From Rhizoclosmatium globosum (lineage: Eukaryota > Chytridiomycota > Chytridiomycetes > Chytridiales > Chytriomycetaceae): a stretch of 64,000 bases of DNA. This document shows, piece after piece, positions 21,358-41,230 of this stretch (positions are counted from its first letter, which is position 1; each line of letters begins with the position of its first letter). A program made the translations under genes and the position numbers. The stretch spans positions 62,001-126,000 of the forward strand of contig MCGO01000047.1 in the NCBI GenBank assembly GCA_002104985.1, in the 5' to 3' direction. A model generated the notes under the pieces. It did not search any database. It saw only the letters and a list, made by a program, of their open reading frames with translations, and was not told the DNA's origin.

Positions 21358-23500
21358 TTAAAAATCCTTTAATATCTGGGGACCTCTAATGGTTTGTTTC
21401 TGTTTGGCTTTTTGTTTTACAACTTTCTTGACAAGACTATAGTAGTGGTCAACCTCATTTTCTGTAAGGGAGAGTGTTTGCCACTTATATCTGATTTGCA
21501 TCAGTAGCACTGTGTTCATTATGAGTATTATGCCCTTGTCTGTTATGCGTTTTGTCTGGAGTATTTTAATTGTGTCTTTGATTTGCTTTTCAATCATTGT
21601 TCTGCCAGTTTTGCCAAGGTTATCTGCTGAAAAGTCATTTCCTAGTAGTCTCTCTCCTTGTTTTGGGTTCAAGATTTCTATGCTGGTGTTATCACCCCAA
21701 GTGAGTTGTGTGTATTCGTTTGTTGGATTGATGGCAATGATTTTAACTTTGTTGGTGTTGGATTTTATAGTATTCCCTTCTTGGAACTCATATATGATTG
21801 ATGCTTGTTTTTGTAGTTCTTGCCAGGATCTTGCAACATTTGTTGTGTCATCTACATAGGCTAGGGCGGTGATTTCTTCTGAGAGGATGTCTTCCTTCCA
21901 TTCACCATCTACAAATTCGGTTTTTTGTTTTGCTTCTAGTGTCACACCTTTTGTATGTTTGTCCACGATGCAGAGCAGTGTATCCCAGAAAATTATCCAT
22001 TCAATTGGTGCTAGTACTGATCCTTGTTGGATCATGGTGCCAACTGTGATGGTGTTTGTCTCACCAACTGCTGTTCTAACCTTGGCCTTGAGGCGTTTCT
22101 GTGTGTTGTATTTCCATGCTGAGTATTTGTAAGGGAGCTTTATGCGCTTATGTGACCACATTACTGCTTTTGAGCTCACTGAGTCATATGCCTTGGGAAT
22201 GTCATTGAGTAGTAGATATGCTTCTCCATTTGTCTCAACACATGTGTCAATAACTGCTTGTATAATGTGGAGTACAGGATCTGTTGATTCTCCCGGGAGT
22301 GCAGAGAAGTTTCGCCCTTTCAGGATATTGTTTTCTTGGAGGATTGGTTTAAGTCTAAGGTATATTATCATCTCGTGTAGCTTGTATGCTGTTTCCAAGA
22401 GGGCAATTGGTCTTGTTTTCTTGATGTCAGCTCCCCAGTCTTCACTTTTTGGGATTGGGTTGATAATACTTAACAGCCATTGATCAGGTGAGTCAGCATA
22501 GTCAATGCACATTTGTATTACAATGTGAGAGTTTGGATGCAGATTTGGCCTCCATGAAGAAACAATTCCCTTTGAATTTTGCTGTCTCCTGGTGCTTTGT
22601 TTGCTCCCATTGATTTAAGGCTTTCCATGACTTCTGCCTCCGTTATTGGATCGTCCAAGGTGAGGAAGATCTCTGAGTCAATTTCGGGCCTTGGTTTGTA
22701 TTCCTCTGCAAATATTGAGTCACTGCTAAATTCTTTATCAGGTCCAGCCTTAAACCACATTTCAACCTCTCTTGCAGTTTCAGCAAGAACTTTTGCTGGT
22801 TCATGTTCAATATAGGATTTACCATTCTCATCTTTCATTTGGATTTTGTTTAGTCTGACATTGCTATTTCTGTTGAGCATGCTGTTCATATATTTTCCTT
22901 GGTTTTCTTTGCAGTTGTGATCACGTTTGTCCGTGTTGTGTTTAATGTTGGCTTCTGTGATCTCCTTTTGTTTGTCTTCCATCAATTTTTTCGCTGAGTC
23001 TCTTTCTTTTGTGAGCCATTCAATTCTTTTCTGTTTTAGTTCATTTTTTGTCAAGATGTTGCTTCCCATTTTAGGTGGGTCTGTGCTGTATTTGTGTTTG
23101 GCCACTTGGTATTGTAGTATGAGCAATTTGTTTTGCCGTTCAGTGATCCTGCCAGTGAGGTTTGATGGCTGTTTTGCTTCTTGAGGCATTCTTCTAGACG
23201 GCTGTATAGTTTGATATAGTTATTGCAGACTATTTCTTCTGCCCGTCTCCCCCCAACTGTCTTTGTTGGAATCAGGGTTTTAGCTGTGTCTAGTATTGTA
23301 CGTTCAAGGTCGGTGATGAGATTTGTTAGTTCTTTCATAACAACTTCTTTAGTTTTCAGATCACATAGTCTCTCCTTTGTGGCTGGAGGTGAACAACCCA
23401 TTGCTACTGCTTTTTCACTGTGTTCTTGAATGAGTTGTGGATTGTTTTGTTGCATAGGGAATTTTGCCTGTAAAAATTGTGCTCTTGGGAGTATGTTCAA
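21358..23500 (-). pseudogene. LINE linker and reverse transcriptase, frameshifted
   Basis: Three overlapping minus-strand frames (23500-23051, 23189-22518 and 22512-21358) together cover the region between endonuclease and RT and the RT itself. RT signatures are IPKAYDSV (the block holding the first catalytic Asp), QQGSVLAP (the QG-P block), ALAYVDDTTN (catalytic YVDD) and a downstream LGNDFS-like block. Changes of frame at about 23.05-23.19 kb and about 22.515 kb mean no single protein is encoded. The frame runs into the Harbinger insertion at its C-terminal end (after ...GPQILKD). Confidence 0.85.
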
Positions 23501-31663: not shown

Positions 31664-31923
31664 ATGTTCATTGAAGATGAAGCGCGACAGGGAGGAATCC
31701 TGCGCATTCAGGTACCATTCGCGCATCTCTTATTTCGTGTTAATCCCTCTTAATACGTATTCCATTCAGGAGCTTATGAAGCATCCTGACGACCTTGTCA
31801 ACCGCCTTCAAGTACTCAAACGCAAATTCACAAAGGAACGCGCGGCAGTCGACGCACAGCTTAAAACACTCATGGAACAAGCTCTGCACGACCAGAGTTT
31901 AGGCCTTTCGACGATCGCGAAAG

Positions 31924-32222
31924 TGTTACGACGGAGAAGTCTTCTCCGAGTGATCTGTCGACAGGTTAGTCCGCACCCACTCCCTCACCATTCCACTACA
32001 GAACCGACTAACTTACCCAAGCAGGAGGTACGTAGTTGGAAGTGTGATAAGCGACATCAAGGTGAGCGTGTCGGGGTTGCGTGGAGATTCCGGACCGGGA
32101 CTGAACGGAACTACGCTTCCGACCACTCCCGTCCGTCCGTGGATTGCACACGTGATCCCGGTTCTTCGCTTTTTCACAACAAACACTTCCAGTGCCTGCC
32201 ACACAAGTCGCCCGTCCCAACA
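31924..32222 (+). repeat. 5' LTR of the copia element
   Basis: 299 bp, TGTTACGACGG to CGTCCCAACA, identical to the 3' copy. It contains an intron-like segment 31965-32024 with donor GTTAGT, branch-like CGACTAAC and acceptor CAAGCAG. Confidence 0.97.
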
Positions 32223-32236
32223 CAACTACGCCGTTA

Positions 32237-35200
32237 ATGACTGGGTCAAGCAAGTCTACTGTAAACACTACCGACGTCCACCGCCCCAAGCCTGTGGATG
32301 CTTTCGCTCCACACATGGTGTCCACGTCGCTTGATGAGAACGAGGCCTACATCAGGCAACTCTACCCGTCTCTCGTCAATCCCGACCTCCAATCCACGCT
32401 TGTGCTCGCTTCCTACGAAATCTTCGCTCCCACAACCGCTCCCAAACCTATTATGGTGAAAAAGACGGTCACCTCCGAGAATGGTGGGCAGCCTTACGAA
32501 GTAACCGTGGAGAGCGACAAGCCGTCGGATCTGGCTGTTTTCCAGACGAATCAACTCAATCACAACGCATTAGTTGATGCCGCTCTGAAACACCAAAAGG
32601 AAGTCGATGACATCAACAACAAGCGAAAGGAACAACATCGCAAGTTTATTGATGGTCAAGCCGCTGCCCTCCGTGACTACTCCCAGCAGTTCTCTTCCAT
32701 CAAGTGGAAAGAGATTCAGGAGGACCCAACGTTCAAGGCCAACCCAACTCTTTTGAATGCATTCGCTGCTGCGCGATCTGTTTTCCAACAAGACGACCGG
32801 GTTGGGGTGAGTGACTATTTTACGTCTTCCCCTTTTGCCTTATCCATTTCAAATTCGACTTTGTAATGATGACTAATCGACTTTTCATCATATAGATGAA
32901 CTTCACCACGTTCTTGAACAACCTCATGCAGTCTGGACTGTCGAAGGAGCATCGGAACAGTTTGGAGAAGTGGGAAGCTTTCGTCGAAAAGCTCAAGAAG
33001 TCTTCCCAAGGTCTGCAGCAAATCAAGGCTGTTTTCCAGCATTTCCAGTTCAATGACACTGATGCGGAAAAGGCTGCCGATATCTTCTCTCTTGTCCTCA
33101 CTCTGGCCCTTGTCCACAAGAACATGCCAGATCCAAGTTCGGTCCTTGGAAGCCGCTTCATTGGAATCCGACTTGATATCGAGAAAGACGGTTACAAGTT
33201 GTTTCCAAATATGGAAGCTCTTATCACCAAGTTGACAAGCACTTTGACCAATGCTCGCAACCTTTCTGACCCATCTGACAAGTCTGACAAGAATATCAGA
33301 GCAAATGCTGTAAGTCATCATTATCTCCAACTATTGGTTTTGATAAATAACTAACATCAAACCATAGGGGAGAACCGAATCTTCACCAACGGTGTCAAAG
33401 TTCAAGGAGCTTGAGACTTGGCTTTCGAACAACGGATACAAAGCCAATCTCAACAATACGTGTCGCCTCCATCAATCAACCAGAGGTCCAACACATCTCC
33501 TTCGCCATTGTCGTTTTGCTGCCAGTCTGATTGAAAAAGGAGAGGCTGTTGATCTGACCCAACGCTTAGAGAAATCTAAGACCACCCAGTCTTCCCCTAC
33601 CTCAAACTCTGGTCCTTCTTCAAGTTCCCAAGACCGTGACAGAAGAAAAACTGACAAGCGCCACCGTTCTGCTCGCGACGCTTCTGACTCTGACCGAAAC
33701 AACCGTCGCAAGAAGCGTGCGAATGCTGCTGACACTGAGTATGAAACAGACTACTACTCCGACAGTGCCAGTGATGACGAGAAAGACGTCAAGATTGACA
33801 AGAAGGCTCTCAGATCGATTCTGAAGGTGAGTGAAAATGCCGATTTGGTCGATTCCTCCCCCTCTGATTCTGATTTTGATATGCCTGCTCTTGCTGAATC
33901 CTCCAGTGACTCTGAGTCCATGGATGAATATGATTCCGACGATGGTTCTTACACTTCATTGCCCAGACTTCAAAATCTAACAAGGACGTTGAGAAGCAAG
34001 TCCGTAAGCTCGCGGGCAAGTAGAATCCAGAGAGGCTCAACGCTTCTTCAAGTCGATGAAGTTGACAAGTGGCACGATTTTAATGAGTTGTCAAAGCGGA
34101 TTTTTGTTACACGTGGATTGAATGTTTTCAATAAACGTATCCGTTCTTTGATTGATTCTGGTGCTTCCTTGATTATGACTCCCTGTTTAGAACACTTTGT
34201 TCCTGGGACCTACCAGCCAGTTGAAGATGAATTCGTATATATGGCCAACGAAAACAAGATCCCAATAGTCGGTACTGGTACCATCCGAATGTTCAGTAAC
34301 CCTGAGAGACTGATTGAAGGCGCTCTTCATGTCCCTCAGCTTACAGACATGCTTGTGTCAATTTCACACTTGTTACGTGACTCAAAAGATACCATTGAGT
34401 TCACTCAGAACAAGGTACGCTTGAAGCTCAATCAAACGCGTCAAGTCTTGGAAATTGGAGCACGAGTCGGCGATCTTTACTACATTGACCTTGGTTATGA
34501 CGAATCCAAATTTGCTGCACCTGCAAAGTCTATTCCTGCTCTAGATCGCAAAACTTGGTTAGAATGGCACCAAGTCCTTGCCCACTGCAACGACCGTACT
34601 ATGCGTCAAACATTGGACTCTGCAGGTATCACCTACAACTTTGAGCGAGACAAGAAAATCTGTCCTGCTTGTCCTGCCGTAGCACACAGGAAACGAACCA
34701 CCCGTAAGCTTGATGGCCCATCAGACAGGCCAATTCACATGTTAAGCCACATATACGAAGACCTTTATCCAATTGGTTTTCGCACTATTCGTGGTTACAG
34801 GTATATAGCATTCATCCAATGCCGATACACCAAATATATGTGGATTCTACCGCTCAAGTCAAAAGCAGAGTTTACCATCCGATTCACTCGTTTTCTGAAC
34901 ACTTTAGAGCTCAAGTATGGGTATCAGATTCTTGTAATTGGAGGCGACAGAGGTGAACTTGATACCAAGTGGATGGAAACTTGGTGCCTCTCCCATTCTG
35001 ATGTTGAAGTGGAGCTCCGACTTGCACCAGCTTACACTCAAGAATTTAGTTTGGTCGAACGCCCTCTTGGAATCTACCGCGACAGAGCTGAATTGGAATT
35101 GCTGACATCCTTGTTCCCAAAGGATTTCTACTGCTTTGCAATTCAACTTGCAGTCTTTGTCATTAATTCACTCGTAACCGCCGCTCCTAAAAATGGAGTA

Positions 35201-38200
35201 CGCGCGAAGTCACCGTATGAACGTATCACCAAGGTACAACCATACTACAAGTGAGTCTTTCAAACATTCTTTATACTCAATTCTGGAGAGTAACAACTAT
35301 TTACAGTTACTTCATTTCCATGGGTACGTTGGGATATACGCCAGTTGAAAAGAAACTACGGACCAAACGCGTTGGTAGAATGATCAAAGCAGAGCCCGTT
35401 GCCTTTCTTGCATACAAGTCGCGTACTATCATGATTGTTTGGAACTATCGCCTTCAAAAGCCAGTTGAAGTATTTCACGTTCGCTGGTGCCCCACCATCT
35501 TTCTTGGAAAGACCTTTGATCCAACAGTGGTAAATCCGTTTGTCAAGGCCCATGCTGATGCCATGCAGACATCAATGCCAGTGACTCCGGTTGAAGATGA
35601 AGTTTTCGACTACTTCATTGACATACCAGATGATGGTTTCAAGGTACCTGAAGCACTTGTTGACTCCGAATCTGACACTCCAGAGTCTGGTTGGGACACT
35701 GATGCTACTACACTTTCCAAGTCTGAGATGACATATAAAGGTGACGTTGAGGCAGTTTCTTTGGAAGATGAAGGTGAATAGCCGTACACTATCATAAATC
35801 CTTCAAATTCTTATTTAACAATCATACAAATCTTTAGATGATACTATCATGACTGACGATGAGGCAAGTCTTGAAAAGCTATTCTCTAAAGTCCAGCCTG
35901 TTGGCGAATCTATGGCCCATGGTTAGTATTCCTCAATACGCCAAGCAAAATGTAACATTCTTTATGTTTTCCTATAGATTCTGCTGACAGTACCAGCCCA
36001 TTATTTTCGGGACCTTTAATCGATGGCCCTCGCCTTGCCAGAGAACGTGAGGATATTTCTCGTCTCCTCCAAGAGCCTGGTCGAAGCCTGCGAAAGCGAC
36101 CACGTAGCCGCGAGTCTTCGAGTGAACCTCCACAAAAGCCACGTCGTCTCCGAGCAAAGGTTTCCAAGTCGTCTATTTCCCTTGGTACCAGTGATTTAGA
36201 TGAATTCATATCTTATATGCAACACCTTTTCAAGGAAGGTCAAGTCCTTATGTCAGACTCAGATTCAGCATCTGACTCTGAAGCCTCAAGCCCTGGCACC
36301 AAACCTGCTAAGTCCAACGATGAAGCAGAGCCAGCAACCCTATCTGATCCAGACTTTGAAGCTGCATTGAGCCGCCGCGCACTCGAAGCTATAACTACTG
36401 TGGTTCGTGCAAGTACTACATACATTAGGCTTCAACACCGAGTTGAACGTGCTGCCAAATCAACTGGCAAGAAATTCAGTAAACTCCGCCGCCGCGCCGA
36501 ACATGCTCGTGTCGAAATGGATAGCTTTATGAGTTCCCAGATGGAAGAGTTGGAGAAAGAAAGATCTCGCATCAACGCTGCCCGCCGACCAGAACTTCAC
36601 TTTGATTGGTCCAAGGCTGCTCCCTCTGATGTACCAACTGAACGTATTCATGTTTCCAATGCTCCACCTGTTCCTAAGTCAGTTCGTGAAGCTATGGAAG
36701 GACGCTTTGCTGCTTACTTTCAACGTGCAATGCTTTGTGAAATTGAGAGTCTAATGAACCGCGAAGTTTACACCACTTCTCTTTTGCCTGAAGGTCGCAA
36801 ACCCATCAAATCAAAGTGGGTTTACGCATACAAGACTGATCCTGAAGGATTCATCACTCGCTTCAAAGCTCGTCTTGTTGCAGTCGGCTGTGGTCAAACC
36901 CCTTATGATGACTTTGACGAAACTCATTCGCCAACAGTCAAGATCAAGGCAATCCGTGTTCTCATCGCGTTAAGCGCCGCATTTAACCTCAACATTTCGC
37001 AACTTGATATCAAGACTGCATTTTTGTATGGTGACTTGGACCATCCAAACTACATGCATCTTCCCCCAGGGTTCACTGAAAAAGACTCTGAAGGTAGACC
37101 TCTCTTTGCCGAGCTCAAGAAAGCACTCTATGGTCTTCGCCAAGCTGGACGCCAATGGTATAAGAGACTACGCGATTTCTTTGTGAAAATTGGTTTCCAA
37201 CAGTTGAAAACTGATTCCTGTGTCTTCATGAAGATTGATCCAACTACTGGTCAACTTGTCATCATTCTATTCTATGTTGATGATATCCTCATTGCTTGTA
37301 AGGACCAAGCTGTGATTGACCAAATCAAGGAGCTTATTAAGTCTGAGTTTGAGATTTCTGACCTTGGCCAAGCCAAATGGATTCTCAAGATCCAAGTTGA
37401 ACGCACCAAAGCGGGAATATGGATAGGACAACCTCAATATGCTCATGCTCTGCTGAAAGAATACGATATTTGGGATCTGGACTCCAACAATTGGGCCGAT
37501 ACTCCAATGGCCACCACTTGGAATCATGACCCAAGTAGCCCTCCCGTTTCTGCAGAAGGACAACGCAAATACTGTTCAATTATTGCCAAGTTGATTTATT
37601 TGAGTTGTATGACCAGACCAGACCTCATATGCGCTGTGAACACTCTGGCTCAGTTTCAACGTTCCTCCACCACTCAGCATGATTATGATGCGCTGATTCG
37701 AGTTCTACGCTATCTTCGTAGAACTTATGATTGGGGAATTCTTTTCAAGGCAAGTGCTTCTGGTGACCTCACTGTCTACTCTTCTGAAGAGTCTCGAGTA
37801 AGGACTGACCGACCACTTGATATGGAACTGCCAGAAGGATTGGCTCCACATGCTGCTGCTGATTCAAGTTTTGCACAAGAGACTGATCGTAAGTCTCGCT
37901 CTGCGTATGTGATGATGGCTTTCGGAGGTCCAGTTGCCTGGTACTCCAAGAAGCAGTCAACTACTGCTTTGTCTTCTACTGAATCCGAGCTCTATGCCCT
38001 CGTTGAAGCAGTTAAAGAAGCTCTTTGGATGCGTCTATTCTTGCAAGAACTTGGTTTCAAGTTGCCTGGTTCTACAGTAATTGATCAAGACAATCAGTCT
38101 ACAATTGCTATTGCATCCAACCCCATCAACCATGCCCGTGTTAAACACATGGAGGTCAAGGCTCATTTTGTACGTGAACATATTGAAAACAGCAATGTTT

Positions 38201-38373
38201 CTCTGGTTTACTGCCCCACTGAGTTGATGGTTGCTGATGTACTTACTAAGGCTCTGCCTGCTCCCCAACACTACAGGTTATGTGGTATGATGGGAATGTG
38301 TAAGTTATCTGATGTTGACCCTGATTATAAGTTTAAAGCACTTAGAGTCAGATACACAAGGTTTAGTGATTAA
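32237..38373 (+). CDS. Copia Gag-Pol polyprotein encoded by six exons
   Basis: Exons 32237-32806, 32896-33309, 33368-35250, 35307-35773, 35838-35921 and 35978-38373 sum to 5,814 nt, one frame of 1,937 residues. Introns are 89, 58, 56, 64 and 56 nt, all GT-AG. Gag occupies roughly the first 450 residues and includes a CRLHQSTRGPTHLLRHC CHHC knuckle (about 360-376). The protease has SLIDSGAS (Asp about 591). Integrase has the HHCC zinc motif (EWHQVLAHC, CPAC at about 728-763) and a D-D-E triad: EDLYPIG (about 792), GGDRGE (about 853) and LVERPLG (about 890). RT has RFKARLVAVG, QLDIKTAFLYGDL and YVDD (about 1571-1574); RNase H has AADSS, STESELYAL and DNQSTIAIA. RT and RNase H motifs look intact, so the element may be competent. 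Each retained intron brings an in-frame stop. Confidence 0.93.
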
Positions 38374-38602
38374 ATAAACATTTATGAAGTTCAATTCTTC
38401 AAGCTCGCACTCTATTCTGGTGAATTAAATGTTTAGCCTTATGCTTGTAAAAAGCTTCTGTGTCTCCAGTATAGTCTCGTCACAGGGGGGACGCGTGTCA
38501 CGCGCGTGCCGGCACCTCTGGGCTTATTATACGCACTCAATCTAGTCCGACACTCTTATCACTTCACACGTGACTGCAACCTACCCTGTCGTCACAGGGG
38601 GG
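38374..38602 (+). other. Copia 3' internal tail with a duplicated polypurine tract
   Basis: This stretch lies between the gag-pol stop and the 3' LTR. The 14-mer TCGTCACAGGGGGG occurs at 38477-38490 and again at 38589-38602, the latter directly abutting the LTR, where the polypurine tract priming plus-strand synthesis is expected. The upstream copy may be a second or ancestral tract. Confidence 0.75.
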
Positions 38603-38901
38603 TGTTACGACGGAGAAGTCTTCTCCGAGTGATCTGTCGACAGGTTAGTCCGCACCCACTCCCTCACCATTCCACTACAGAACCGACTAACTTACCCAAG
38701 CAGGAGGTACGTAGTTGGAAGTGTGATAAGCGACATCAAGGTGAGCGTGTCGGGGTTGCGTGGAGATTCCGGACCGGGACTGAACGGAACTACGCTTCCG
38801 ACCACTCCCGTCCGTCCGTGGATTGCACACGTGATCCCGGTTCTTCGCTTTTTCACAACAAACACTTCCAGTGCCTGCCACACAAGTCGCCCGTCCCAAC
38901 A
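38603..38901 (+). repeat. 3' LTR of the copia element
   Basis: 299 bp, read as identical to the 5' LTR, preceded by a polypurine tract and followed by the GAAAG duplication at 38902-38906, after which SEC6 exon 2 resumes. Confidence 0.97.
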
Positions 38902-41230
38902 GAAAGCTCAGGACACAACCGCCCATGTCAAAGAGGCCCTCATCACCATCGACAAGTCCTGGGAGAAGGGAAACAACATTAAAAACTACAAAGATATAAA
39001 GAAAGTGAGTGCTGTCATAACTGATGGAGGATATGTATTTATTCCACCCTAGATTTCCCGTACTCATCAAAACTTCTGTGCGACCAAAGACCTCGTCGAG
39101 CAGTTCCTCCAGCTGAATGCTCAAGTTGCAAAGATTCAAAATGTGCTCACTCAAGATGCAGCTAATCCAACTGGACCTGCAGGTATATTTGTGCTTTGAC
39201 AGCTCACCCTCGACTCAATCCCACCTTGCTCCCCAACAGAGAACCTTCTCTACATCCACTACCAAATTCAAAACCTCGAATCTTTGCGAAACTCTACCCT
39301 CGCTAAATCTAGAAAGGCTCCTGCAGATGTATTGGAAACACTCAACAAATATTTCCAACAAGTCGATGATCTGATCAAGCAGTTTGAGATTTACCTATGG
39401 GAAGTTGGCAAAAATACGATTGCGTTGGTAAAAGAGGGAAACAGCGCAGGCGTCTTGAGGCTGGTCAAGATTATTGAGACAGAGGAGAAGGCCGATGAAG
39501 TTGCCGCCATTGCTGAAGCCACGACACCTGTCGAGCTGTTAGAGAGTGCAAGAGCAATGTAAGTTCTTTTTTGTTTAATTATTCTGAATTTGAATATTGA
39601 TTGAATCTCGAATCGAAAGTAAATCCTATCGTATCAAGTTCTTTGACGTACTTCGTGACTCCATCAACGCCCACGTTCATCAAATGTACCAAGCACAAAT
39701 GATTGACTTCCATGAACTCCCACTCGCCATCGACGCTGTTCTTGAAGACCTGATCGTTGTGAATGAGAAACTGTCCCCCCGTTTCCCTAAAAAGTACAAC
39801 ATTTTCCAGTTCTTTGTACTTGAATACCATCGCTCTATTTACGACATGGTCAACAACATCATAGCCGCACCAATGGAAGCCGGTTCTATCCTAATTCTCT
39901 TGAAACTTGTGCGCGATTATTACTCAAATATGAGCAGTCGACTTGGTGTCGGGGAAGAGTTGTTAGAGCCCAGGTTGTTGGATGATCGGGAAGATGAATT
40001 GATTTTGAATTACATCCAGCTTGTGCGTGAGAAACTGGGGGAATGGCTCAACAACTTGTTGAACAACGAAACACGAGGATTCTTGGAACGAACAGGTCCT
40101 CCGGATGTGGATCGCAATGGAAAATACGAGTTGAATGGGAGTGTTATTGTGTTTCAGATGTTCAATCAGCAGATTGATATTGTGTCTGGGTCTAGTCGAG
40201 GGGCATTGATCTTCGATGTAAGTTTTGTGGTGTACTCTAAGCGGATGACTGATGATGAATGCAAAACAGGTCCTCGCTGAGTGTTGCACAGCCCTCGAAG
40301 AATATCAGAGAGCATGGTCGCGAATCCTTGAATTTGAATACGACAAGTTCACTGACCGCTCTCCTGATCTCGCCGAGGGACTCCCAGACTACATTGTCGC
40401 TCTTGCCAACGACTCCATGAAATGTACCGAATTCTCTGAAGTCATGATATCCCGAATCGAAACTTTGATGGACGATCCATTCAAAGCACAGGCTATTGAA
40501 ATGCTGAGAACTTCTTTAGATGGGTTCATGAGGATTGTGAAGCGATGTTACGGAATTTTGATTGACATCACATTGAAGGACACGCTTCCGGCATTGACAA
40601 GACTTTATTGTACTGAATGGTACGAGATGGAACTCGTGAGACTGGTTGTCGGAACATTTGAAGATTGTGAGCACCCAACAAATGAGAAACCAAATACTCA
40701 TTCAAATTCATCTAGACTTCAACGACTTTCAGGAACGTATGCAGGATTACATCTTCACCAAATATGTCAACGAGCTTCAGGACCGTTTCATTCTTCTATA
40801 TGTTGAATCGCTTAGGAACAAGGGAGGAAAACTCAAGCTTCCTTTGGCGACGGAAAAGATGCGATTAGATCTTGAAATGGTGACGGACTTCTTTTCAAAG
40901 TACAAGGCGCCAAAGCGTGTCAAAGCTGCGTTTGATGTGATGGAAAAGATCATCGCGTTTATTGAAAGTAACGGATCTCTTTTGTTTCTGGACTTTTACA
41001 CGTAAGCTCTTTTATTCTAACTAAAGTTGTGGCTAACCAATTTCAGCCTTTGGAAAGCGTATCCGGATATTCCTCTGCCGTTTGTGGAGGAGCTTTTGTT
41101 CAAACGTGATGACTTGGATAGAACACAGGTTCGCGAAGTGTTGGATCAAATCAAAACAAAAGTTGCAGAGGAGAGGGAGTGTAACCAAAACTTACCTGTT
41201 ACTCTCTTTTCAAAGTTTTCGATGAAATGA

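Follow-up and report, generated by a model that had tools for sequence, protein, structure and literature searches.

A copia retrotransposon of the chytrid Rhizoclosmatium globosum with five predicted introns kept through recent insertions

Intron loss is a textbook mark of retrotransposition. In Ogre elements, an intron of the polyprotein region is reported to be spliced in only part of the transcripts (PMC6317226). Work on BARE describes a split of the RNA between translation and copying, an experimental precedent for separate pools in a copia element (PMC3735527), and splicing of EVD is mentioned in PMC12786077. Penelope-like elements are described as keeping introns after retrotransposition, and an antisense template was considered for them (PMC3846280). 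Among fungal copia clades, FunCo1 is assigned a tRNA-type primer site, and fungal GalEa is described without one (PMC5445492). Here, we analyze a 64,000-nucleotide stretch of Rhizoclosmatium globosum DNA (contig MCGO01000047.1, positions 62,001 to 126,000 of the forward strand; hereafter the window), which holds a copia-type long terminal repeat (LTR) retrotransposon of 6,978 nt at 31924-38901. Its gag-pol region is interrupted by five predicted introns, and the same introns recur in other recent insertions of its family in the genome.

Structure, copies and recent movement of the element

All features of the element lie on the forward strand of the window. The 5′ LTR (31924..32222) and the 3′ LTR (38603..38901) are each 299 nt long, with TG..CA ends in the former, and show 0 differences from each other. 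The target-site duplication (TSD) GAAAG stands on the left (31919..31923) and on the right (38902..38906), and a polypurine tract, AGGGGGG (38596..38602), lies directly 5′ of the 3′ LTR. Removing the five GT-AG introns of 56-89 nt leaves six exons that total 5,814 nt, a length divisible by 3, whose sole in-exon stop is the final codon; none of the three codons split by an intron is a stop. Exon 1 (32237..32806; 570 nt, 190 codons) is called gag from its position and because it weakly resembles the gag regions of the sister families. It is followed by intron 1 (32807..32895; 89 nt, phase 0), exon 2 (32896..33309; 414 nt, also gag), intron 2 (33310..33367; 58 nt, phase 0) and exon 3 (33368..35250; 1883 nt), which covers the gag end, protease, Pol_BBD and integrase. 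Intron 3 (35251..35306; 56 nt, phase 2) separates it from exon 4 (35307..35773; 467 nt), with the C-terminal part of the integrase and the start of a linker. Intron 4 (35774..35837; 64 nt) and intron 5 (35922..35977; 56 nt), both phase 1 with the junction codon GAT, enclose exon 5 (35838..35921; 84 nt), which belongs to the linker, and exon 6 (35978..38373; 2396 nt) carries the rest of the linker, the reverse transcriptase (RT), the RNase H region and the stop codon.

Scanning five of the six exon pieces against Pfam (the 27-residue exon 5 was left out), we found Pol_BBD in exon 3 (E 1.2e-11) and RVT_2 (PF07727) in exon 6 (E 1.7e-57; about 36763-37509), with RVT_3 only at E 0.087. Exons 1, 2 and 4 had no match above the cut-off, which includes gag, and rve was not matched in the five pieces. 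Residues 400-612 of exon 3 match the PDB chain 7z0h_W, molecule 'Integrase' (E 1.1e-5), and a PDB search with exon 6 gave nothing at E <= 0.01. We take DSGAS in exon 3 to be the protease motif. Since the integrase lies upstream of the RT, the element is of the copia type; an RVT_2-type RT, integrase before RT, TG..CA LTRs, a 5-bp TSD and a polypurine tract are together those of a Ty1/copia element.

We searched the genome (57 Mb, 420 contigs) using the LTR, a gag part, an RT part and two exon proteins as queries. Such searches score the best candidates only, so that copy numbers are lower bounds; the copies compared are those matching both gag and RT, leaving aside LTR-only and short gag matches (e.g., C212). 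At least 11 distinct insertions belong to the family of the window element (family A), and each has a 5-bp TSD. Two of them, C372/C109 and C394/C34, lie on two contigs each and were counted once because their flanks and TSDs match. All five introns are present with GT and AG ends in eight of the 11 (the window element, C376a, C376b, C418, C1, C238, C380 and C124), and in each of these eight the LTRs have 0 mismatches, the 2 gap columns of C376a arising from slicing at fixed length. Exon 3 is open in all eight, and exon 6 is open over 797 residues in seven; C376a has a 1-nt deletion in exon 6. As for the other three, C377 has lost intron 2 within a 452-nt deletion, together with 7 nt of intron 4; C372/C109 is decayed and partly inverted, with 33 nt over the intron 1 donor lost; and C394/C34 lacks intron 3 precisely. 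Having their own 5-bp TSDs and no LTR mismatches, the eight five-intron insertions have moved through reverse transcription with the introns in place. An oddity of the assembly or of a single copy was rejected, as eight of the 11 insertions agree, and so was duplication of the copies at the DNA level, as each of the 11 has its own TSD. Because 10 nt of the C380 flank also occur at the start of intron 4, an origin of C380 inside another copy was considered; it was rejected too, since the two 100-nt flanks of C380 show no match to the element.

The window insertion has an empty counterpart. Contig C391 (L044) carries the same region without the element and with a single GAAAG, at 99.8% identity over 2.4 kb on the left and 99.1% over 2.6 kb on the right. 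Of two homologous contigs, one thus has the insertion and the other does not. The exon 3′ of the insertion point (31923/38902) matches Sec6 of the exocyst (E 3.4e-11), and we read the insertion as interrupting one SEC6-like gene, the scanned exon being the one after the element.

An earlier note on this DNA, made from the window alone, had placed the element at coordinates that proved right to the base, and had described identical LTRs, an intact target duplication and a 5,814-nt frame after removal of five GT-AG introns, all of which we recomputed with the same result. Its view that the element moved recently with its introns agrees with the empty-site allele, the absence of LTR mismatches and the separate TSDs of the eight insertions. 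It had proposed to look at other full-length copies, holding that frame-sharing copies without the introns would speak against it. The five introns are kept in eight of the 11 insertions, and one insertion lacks intron 3 only, the other four being kept; the protection of the introns is not perfect.

Some copies show rearrangements of their own. The old copy on C372 and C109 (L016, L017) has a 325-nt inverted piece of the element, matching 34070-34394 of the window, with adjoining sequence missing, and many stop codons. At C124:180855-192194 (L018, L023), the 3′ part of the element (37308-38767 of the window) occurs in repeated copies beside a separate solo LTR. In the C394 and C34 copies (L019, L020), the RT region is interrupted by an insertion of ~5 kb, on both sides of which the same 13 nt of the element occur.

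Selection on the spliced frame and the copy without intron 3

We sorted the segregating sites of the eight five-intron copies by codon position in the spliced frame, which has 1,938 sites of each kind: 13 fall at first, 5 at second and 87 at third positions. The third-position share, 87 of 105 variable coding sites, has a binomial p of about 2e-25, a nominal value as the copies are related. The excess appears in every exon from 1 to 6 (9/12, 4/5, 33/36, 8/10, 2/2 and 31/40). This pattern indicates that family A's own proteins are under selection, and it shows strong purifying selection on the spliced frame. The effect of keeping an intron was also checked in the predicted introns of family A and of the sister families B, C and D described below: 16 of the 19 contain an in-frame stop, and in the other three a stop follows soon after the intron. 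Owing to these stops, unspliced RNA would make only truncated Gag. Within family A, the introns vary less than the third positions (6/323 vs 87/1,938; p 0.023).

In the C394/C34 insertion, precisely 35251-35306 is missing, which is the whole of intron 3 (56 nt), and introns 1, 2, 4 and 5 are in place. Searching the genome for spliced junctions, we found junction 3 at two places only, C394 and C34, at <=2 mismatches, and junctions 1, 2, 4 and 5 nowhere at the same threshold. The exact excision indicates that the predicted ends of intron 3 are right. Probably, a partly spliced RNA, without intron 3 only, was copied once. A 63-nt deletion after the stop codon of C394/C34 was considered as a further intron and rejected, as it is not GT-AG; it is a plain deletion.

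The same absence could also mean that intron 3 was gained recently within family A and that C394/C34 keeps the original state. Families B, C and D, as well as a further sister family, E, have no counterpart of intron 3, and the tree of the copies is unrooted, which would both suit a gain. The search with intron 3 DNA matched family A copies only (11 places), which we count against it. Intron 3 is also carried by C377 and C372/C109, which are more distant by pairwise divergence, a distance that is partly decay. Moreover, C394 differs from nine other copies at 25 sites (17 replacements, 1 stop and 7 silent changes), three of them shared with C372 and/or C109; mostly replacements, these differences look like decay after insertion. 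Since intron 3 stands in the more divergent copies and the C394 sites resemble decay, a loss in C394/C34 is favoured over a gain elsewhere, although this is not proof, the silent sites being unpolarised. We regard the gain as unlikely.

Sister families, primer sites and a candidate Gag-only isoform

Four sister families were found in the same genome: B (C224, C26, C111, C61), C (C388, C129), D (the single locus C4, with no LTRs found in the 9.5 kb examined) and E (C52, C301, C220, C223). Their RT identity to the window element is 49-56% in the tree alignment, and the LTR pairs of B, C and E are 99.5-100% identical. We predict five introns in B, five in C and four in D, working from one copy each (C26, C388 and C4); the acceptor is uncertain for B introns 2 and 4 and for the zinc-finger intron of C. 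In family E, C52 and C301 each have an uninterrupted frame of 1,958 codons; as the two are the same in sequence and have the same TSD, they are probably one insertion. In C223 and C220 the frame is broken by a small indel.

Families B and C share the codon and the phase of gag intron 1 (S[G]LQF), and in an alignment made by eye the intron of A sits 2 nt further along; D and E are uninterrupted at this site. The linker between integrase and RT has two introns each in A, B and C and three in D, and all nine are phase 1 with a junction codon GAT, GAA or GAG. Since the linker aligns poorly, matching these introns one to one between families is not certain, and the shared pattern may mean that the introns descend from one ancestor or were duplicated within an acidic linker. 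One linker intron of C129 carries a 12-nt deletion when compared with C388.

Building an RT tree from 72 sequences, of which 13 come from this genome and 59 from among the first 60 outside matches (120 listed of 1,604), we found that A, B, C and D form one clade with the outside matches P0001-P0003 (99/97, starred), to which E plus P0004 is sister (99/82, starred). C36/C41 with P0005 fall outside A-E (86/28, weak), and the other 57 sequences lie on the far side of the midpoint root. The order within the A-D clade is weak (88/65, 84/63, 83/14). The open reading frames of P0001-P0003 (656-873 aa) start in the linker, which at the protein level hints at a break at that point; the contigs of P0001 and P0004 are ~2.6 kb long. 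Exon 3 had no protein match outside this genome at E <= 1e-15, so that the spread of the clade beyond this genome is read from the RT. We read these data as introns that were present in the A-D ancestor and kept, with later gains and losses; in family E, the introns may have been lost or may never have been present.

The sequence after the LTR can pair with a segment in the middle of the LTR; counted from the LTR end, the pairing covers 8 nt in A and 9 nt each in B, C and E. In the window element, the candidate primer binding site CAACTACG (32223..32230), immediately 3′ of the LTR, is complementary to CGTAGTTG (32031..32038) within the LTR, the candidate self-primer; the site begins with CAACTACG and not with TGG. 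A primer site of the tRNA type is usual in Ty1/copia elements but not universal. GAAG or GAGA comes next after every such pairing (A, B, C, E; L025, L029, L030). When the LTR was shuffled by mononucleotides, a pairing as long was reached in 56 (A), 44 (B), 28 (C) and 12 (E) of 20,000 cases; allowing 12 start offsets, the A pairing is weaker (71/2,000 shuffles). Family C has a second pairing of 10 nt starting 3 nt further on. The letters differ between the families while the pairing is kept, and every primer site fits its own LTR best, the cross-fits being 8 nt for the E site with the B LTR, 7 nt for the A site with the B LTR and 4 nt for the A site with the E LTR. Among five outgroup loci, four have an LTR pair (L036-L039; L035 has none), and all four show a pairing of 6 nt or nothing. 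The outgroup loci C5 and C36b, near relatives of each other, carry the FunCo1-like ATTAAGAGT, which family A is without. Together, these features point to Tf1-like self-priming in A, B, C and E. Self-priming is in print for Tf1/sushi elements and predicted for the plant copia group TAR (PMC6317226).

A further splice may occur at the gag/protease boundary, the place where B and D have phase-0 introns. The donor AAG|GTGAGT at 33827 is perfect and is the only GTGAGT in the exons, and an acceptor lies at 33966. Splicing out these 140 nt (33827..33966) would give a Gag that ends in TSKSNKDVEKQVRKLAGK, an 18-residue Gag-only end. Within this segment, the eight copies vary at third positions of the pol reading frame, so that it codes for protein when retained. 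The candidate intron may weakly suggest a Gag-only isoform as in BARE.

Apart from this element, the window has a second reverse transcriptase on the minus strand (21358-22614; RVT_1, E 5.9e-19), which likely belongs to a non-LTR element. As to the host, the best protein matches of a valyl-tRNA synthetase exon are at 66-75%; among those with a name, Linderina (66%) and Coemansia (61-63%) lead, with animals near 60%, which would suit a fungus.

Two RNA pools, competing explanations and known systems

We hold with good confidence that the window element is an autonomous, recently active copia (Ty1-type) element of a clade with introns in gag-pol, whose spliced RNA would be the Gag-Pol mRNA and whose unspliced RNA would be the copied genome, perhaps self-primed. 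Its protein needs spliced RNA, yet the new copies record unspliced RNA; two RNA pools follow from this, and copying of the unspliced RNA would be the simplest account. A single pre-mRNA would start from the LTR promoter, and its fully spliced fraction would be the only Gag-Pol mRNA. The fraction that escapes splicing would be exported, packaged and reverse transcribed, so that new copies keep the introns, and the primer may be made of the 5′ end of the element's own RNA. Now and then, a partly spliced RNA would be copied, and one intron would be lost for good. We infer the splicing in the cell, the choice of RNA for packaging and the self-priming from the DNA.

Several points weigh against this account. 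The intronless family E shows that introns are not needed. For B, C and D the introns are predicted, each set from a single copy, and D is one locus without LTRs found. Intron 3 alone has a spliced counterpart in the genome, and introns 1, 2, 4 and 5 are supported by frame, splice signals and family comparison. The tree of family A copies is unrooted and weak around C394/C34 (49.6/51). The introns are not clearly less variable than the LTRs (p 0.12), and the comparisons fall short of a case for a packaging signal or another function of the intron sequence itself. Slightly less likely than not is a broader version, in which splicing would act as a switch between mRNA and genome: Gag-Pol would come only from fully spliced RNA, only unspliced RNA would be efficiently packaged, selection for this separation would have kept the introns over the divergence of at least four families with occasional precise losses, E would be an intronless sister lineage, and the clade would prime itself.

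Could family A be moved in trans, its unspliced RNA being packaged and copied by the proteins of a relative without introns, for example family E, while A's own proteins are unimportant? Family E does coexist with A, with an intronless copy of 1,958 codons and young LTR pairs (99.5-100%). However, the spliced frame of A is under strong purifying selection by the 13/5/87 count, its primer site pairs over 8 nt with its own LTR and over only 4 nt with that of E, and its RT part is only 46-51% identical to that of E. We find such mobilisation in trans quite improbable.

An antisense RNA template, in which the introns would be unspliceable, would keep them without any escape from splicing, and it was proposed for Penelope elements (PMC3846280). 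The LTRs, the polypurine tract by the 3′ LTR, the 5-bp TSDs and the primer-site-like stretch fit instead a sense-strand replication of the LTR type, and a copy minus exactly one intron would not come from a wholly antisense template, which makes this explanation very improbable. That the breaks are programmed frameshifts or decay and not introns is hardly credible: frame breaks are common in transposon copies and several more distant copia loci here are open over 1,500-1,749 codons, but eight of the 11 insertions share the same five breaks, whose GT-AG ends match and whose removal leaves a frame that is open and constrained, and one copy lacks exactly one break, so that the idea is hard to hold for intron 3.

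Copying of unspliced RNA as the genome, which the earlier note had also inferred, is our preferred reading. The earlier note had described the introns as a feature of this copy, and they are borne out there; the trait is wider, belonging to the family and to a larger clade, with a close sister family, E, that has no introns. It had also called five introns in a copia element exceptional. This fits the literature searched: we found no multi-intron copia element in the open-licence literature, judged by title and abstract start, a scope outside which most subscription papers fall. Spliced LTR elements with fewer introns are, on the other hand, already in print (Ogre, BARE, EVD). The lineage combines many introns, recent insertions, a visible loss of a single intron and an intronless sister in the same genome. 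As a caution, frame breaks in such copia elements may be introns and not decay.

Penelope-like elements have intron retention in common with the window element. They have a different RT, a GIY-YIG endonuclease and no LTR-type cycle. No GIY-YIG match was found at E up to 1 in the five exon pieces scanned, and RVT_2 was found; the element is not Penelope-like. GalEa and FunCo1 are likewise fungal copia clades (PMC5445492), and the word 'intron' has 0 occurrences in the main text of that paper. As in the window element, the primer site is described as complementary to the element's own LTR or RNA 5′ end in Tf1/sushi and in plant TAR (PMC6317226, PMC7175516). Tf1/sushi elements are gypsy and TAR is plant copia, and the anchored match here, 8-9 nt, is below the 10-nt rule given in PMC6317226. 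Ogre, a Ty3/gypsy element of legumes, has RT before integrase and one intron between gag-pro and RT, whereas here integrase precedes RT and there are five small introns. BARE1 and EVD/EVADE, plant Ty1/copia elements, are likewise described as copia elements that splice. In BARE, gag-pol forms a single frame that needs no splicing, and one facultative intron leads to a Gag-only mRNA, whereas gag-pol here needs five introns removed. The lineage offers a natural comparison for the ways in which an element can separate the RNA it translates from the RNA it copies, and in which retroelements gain and lose introns.

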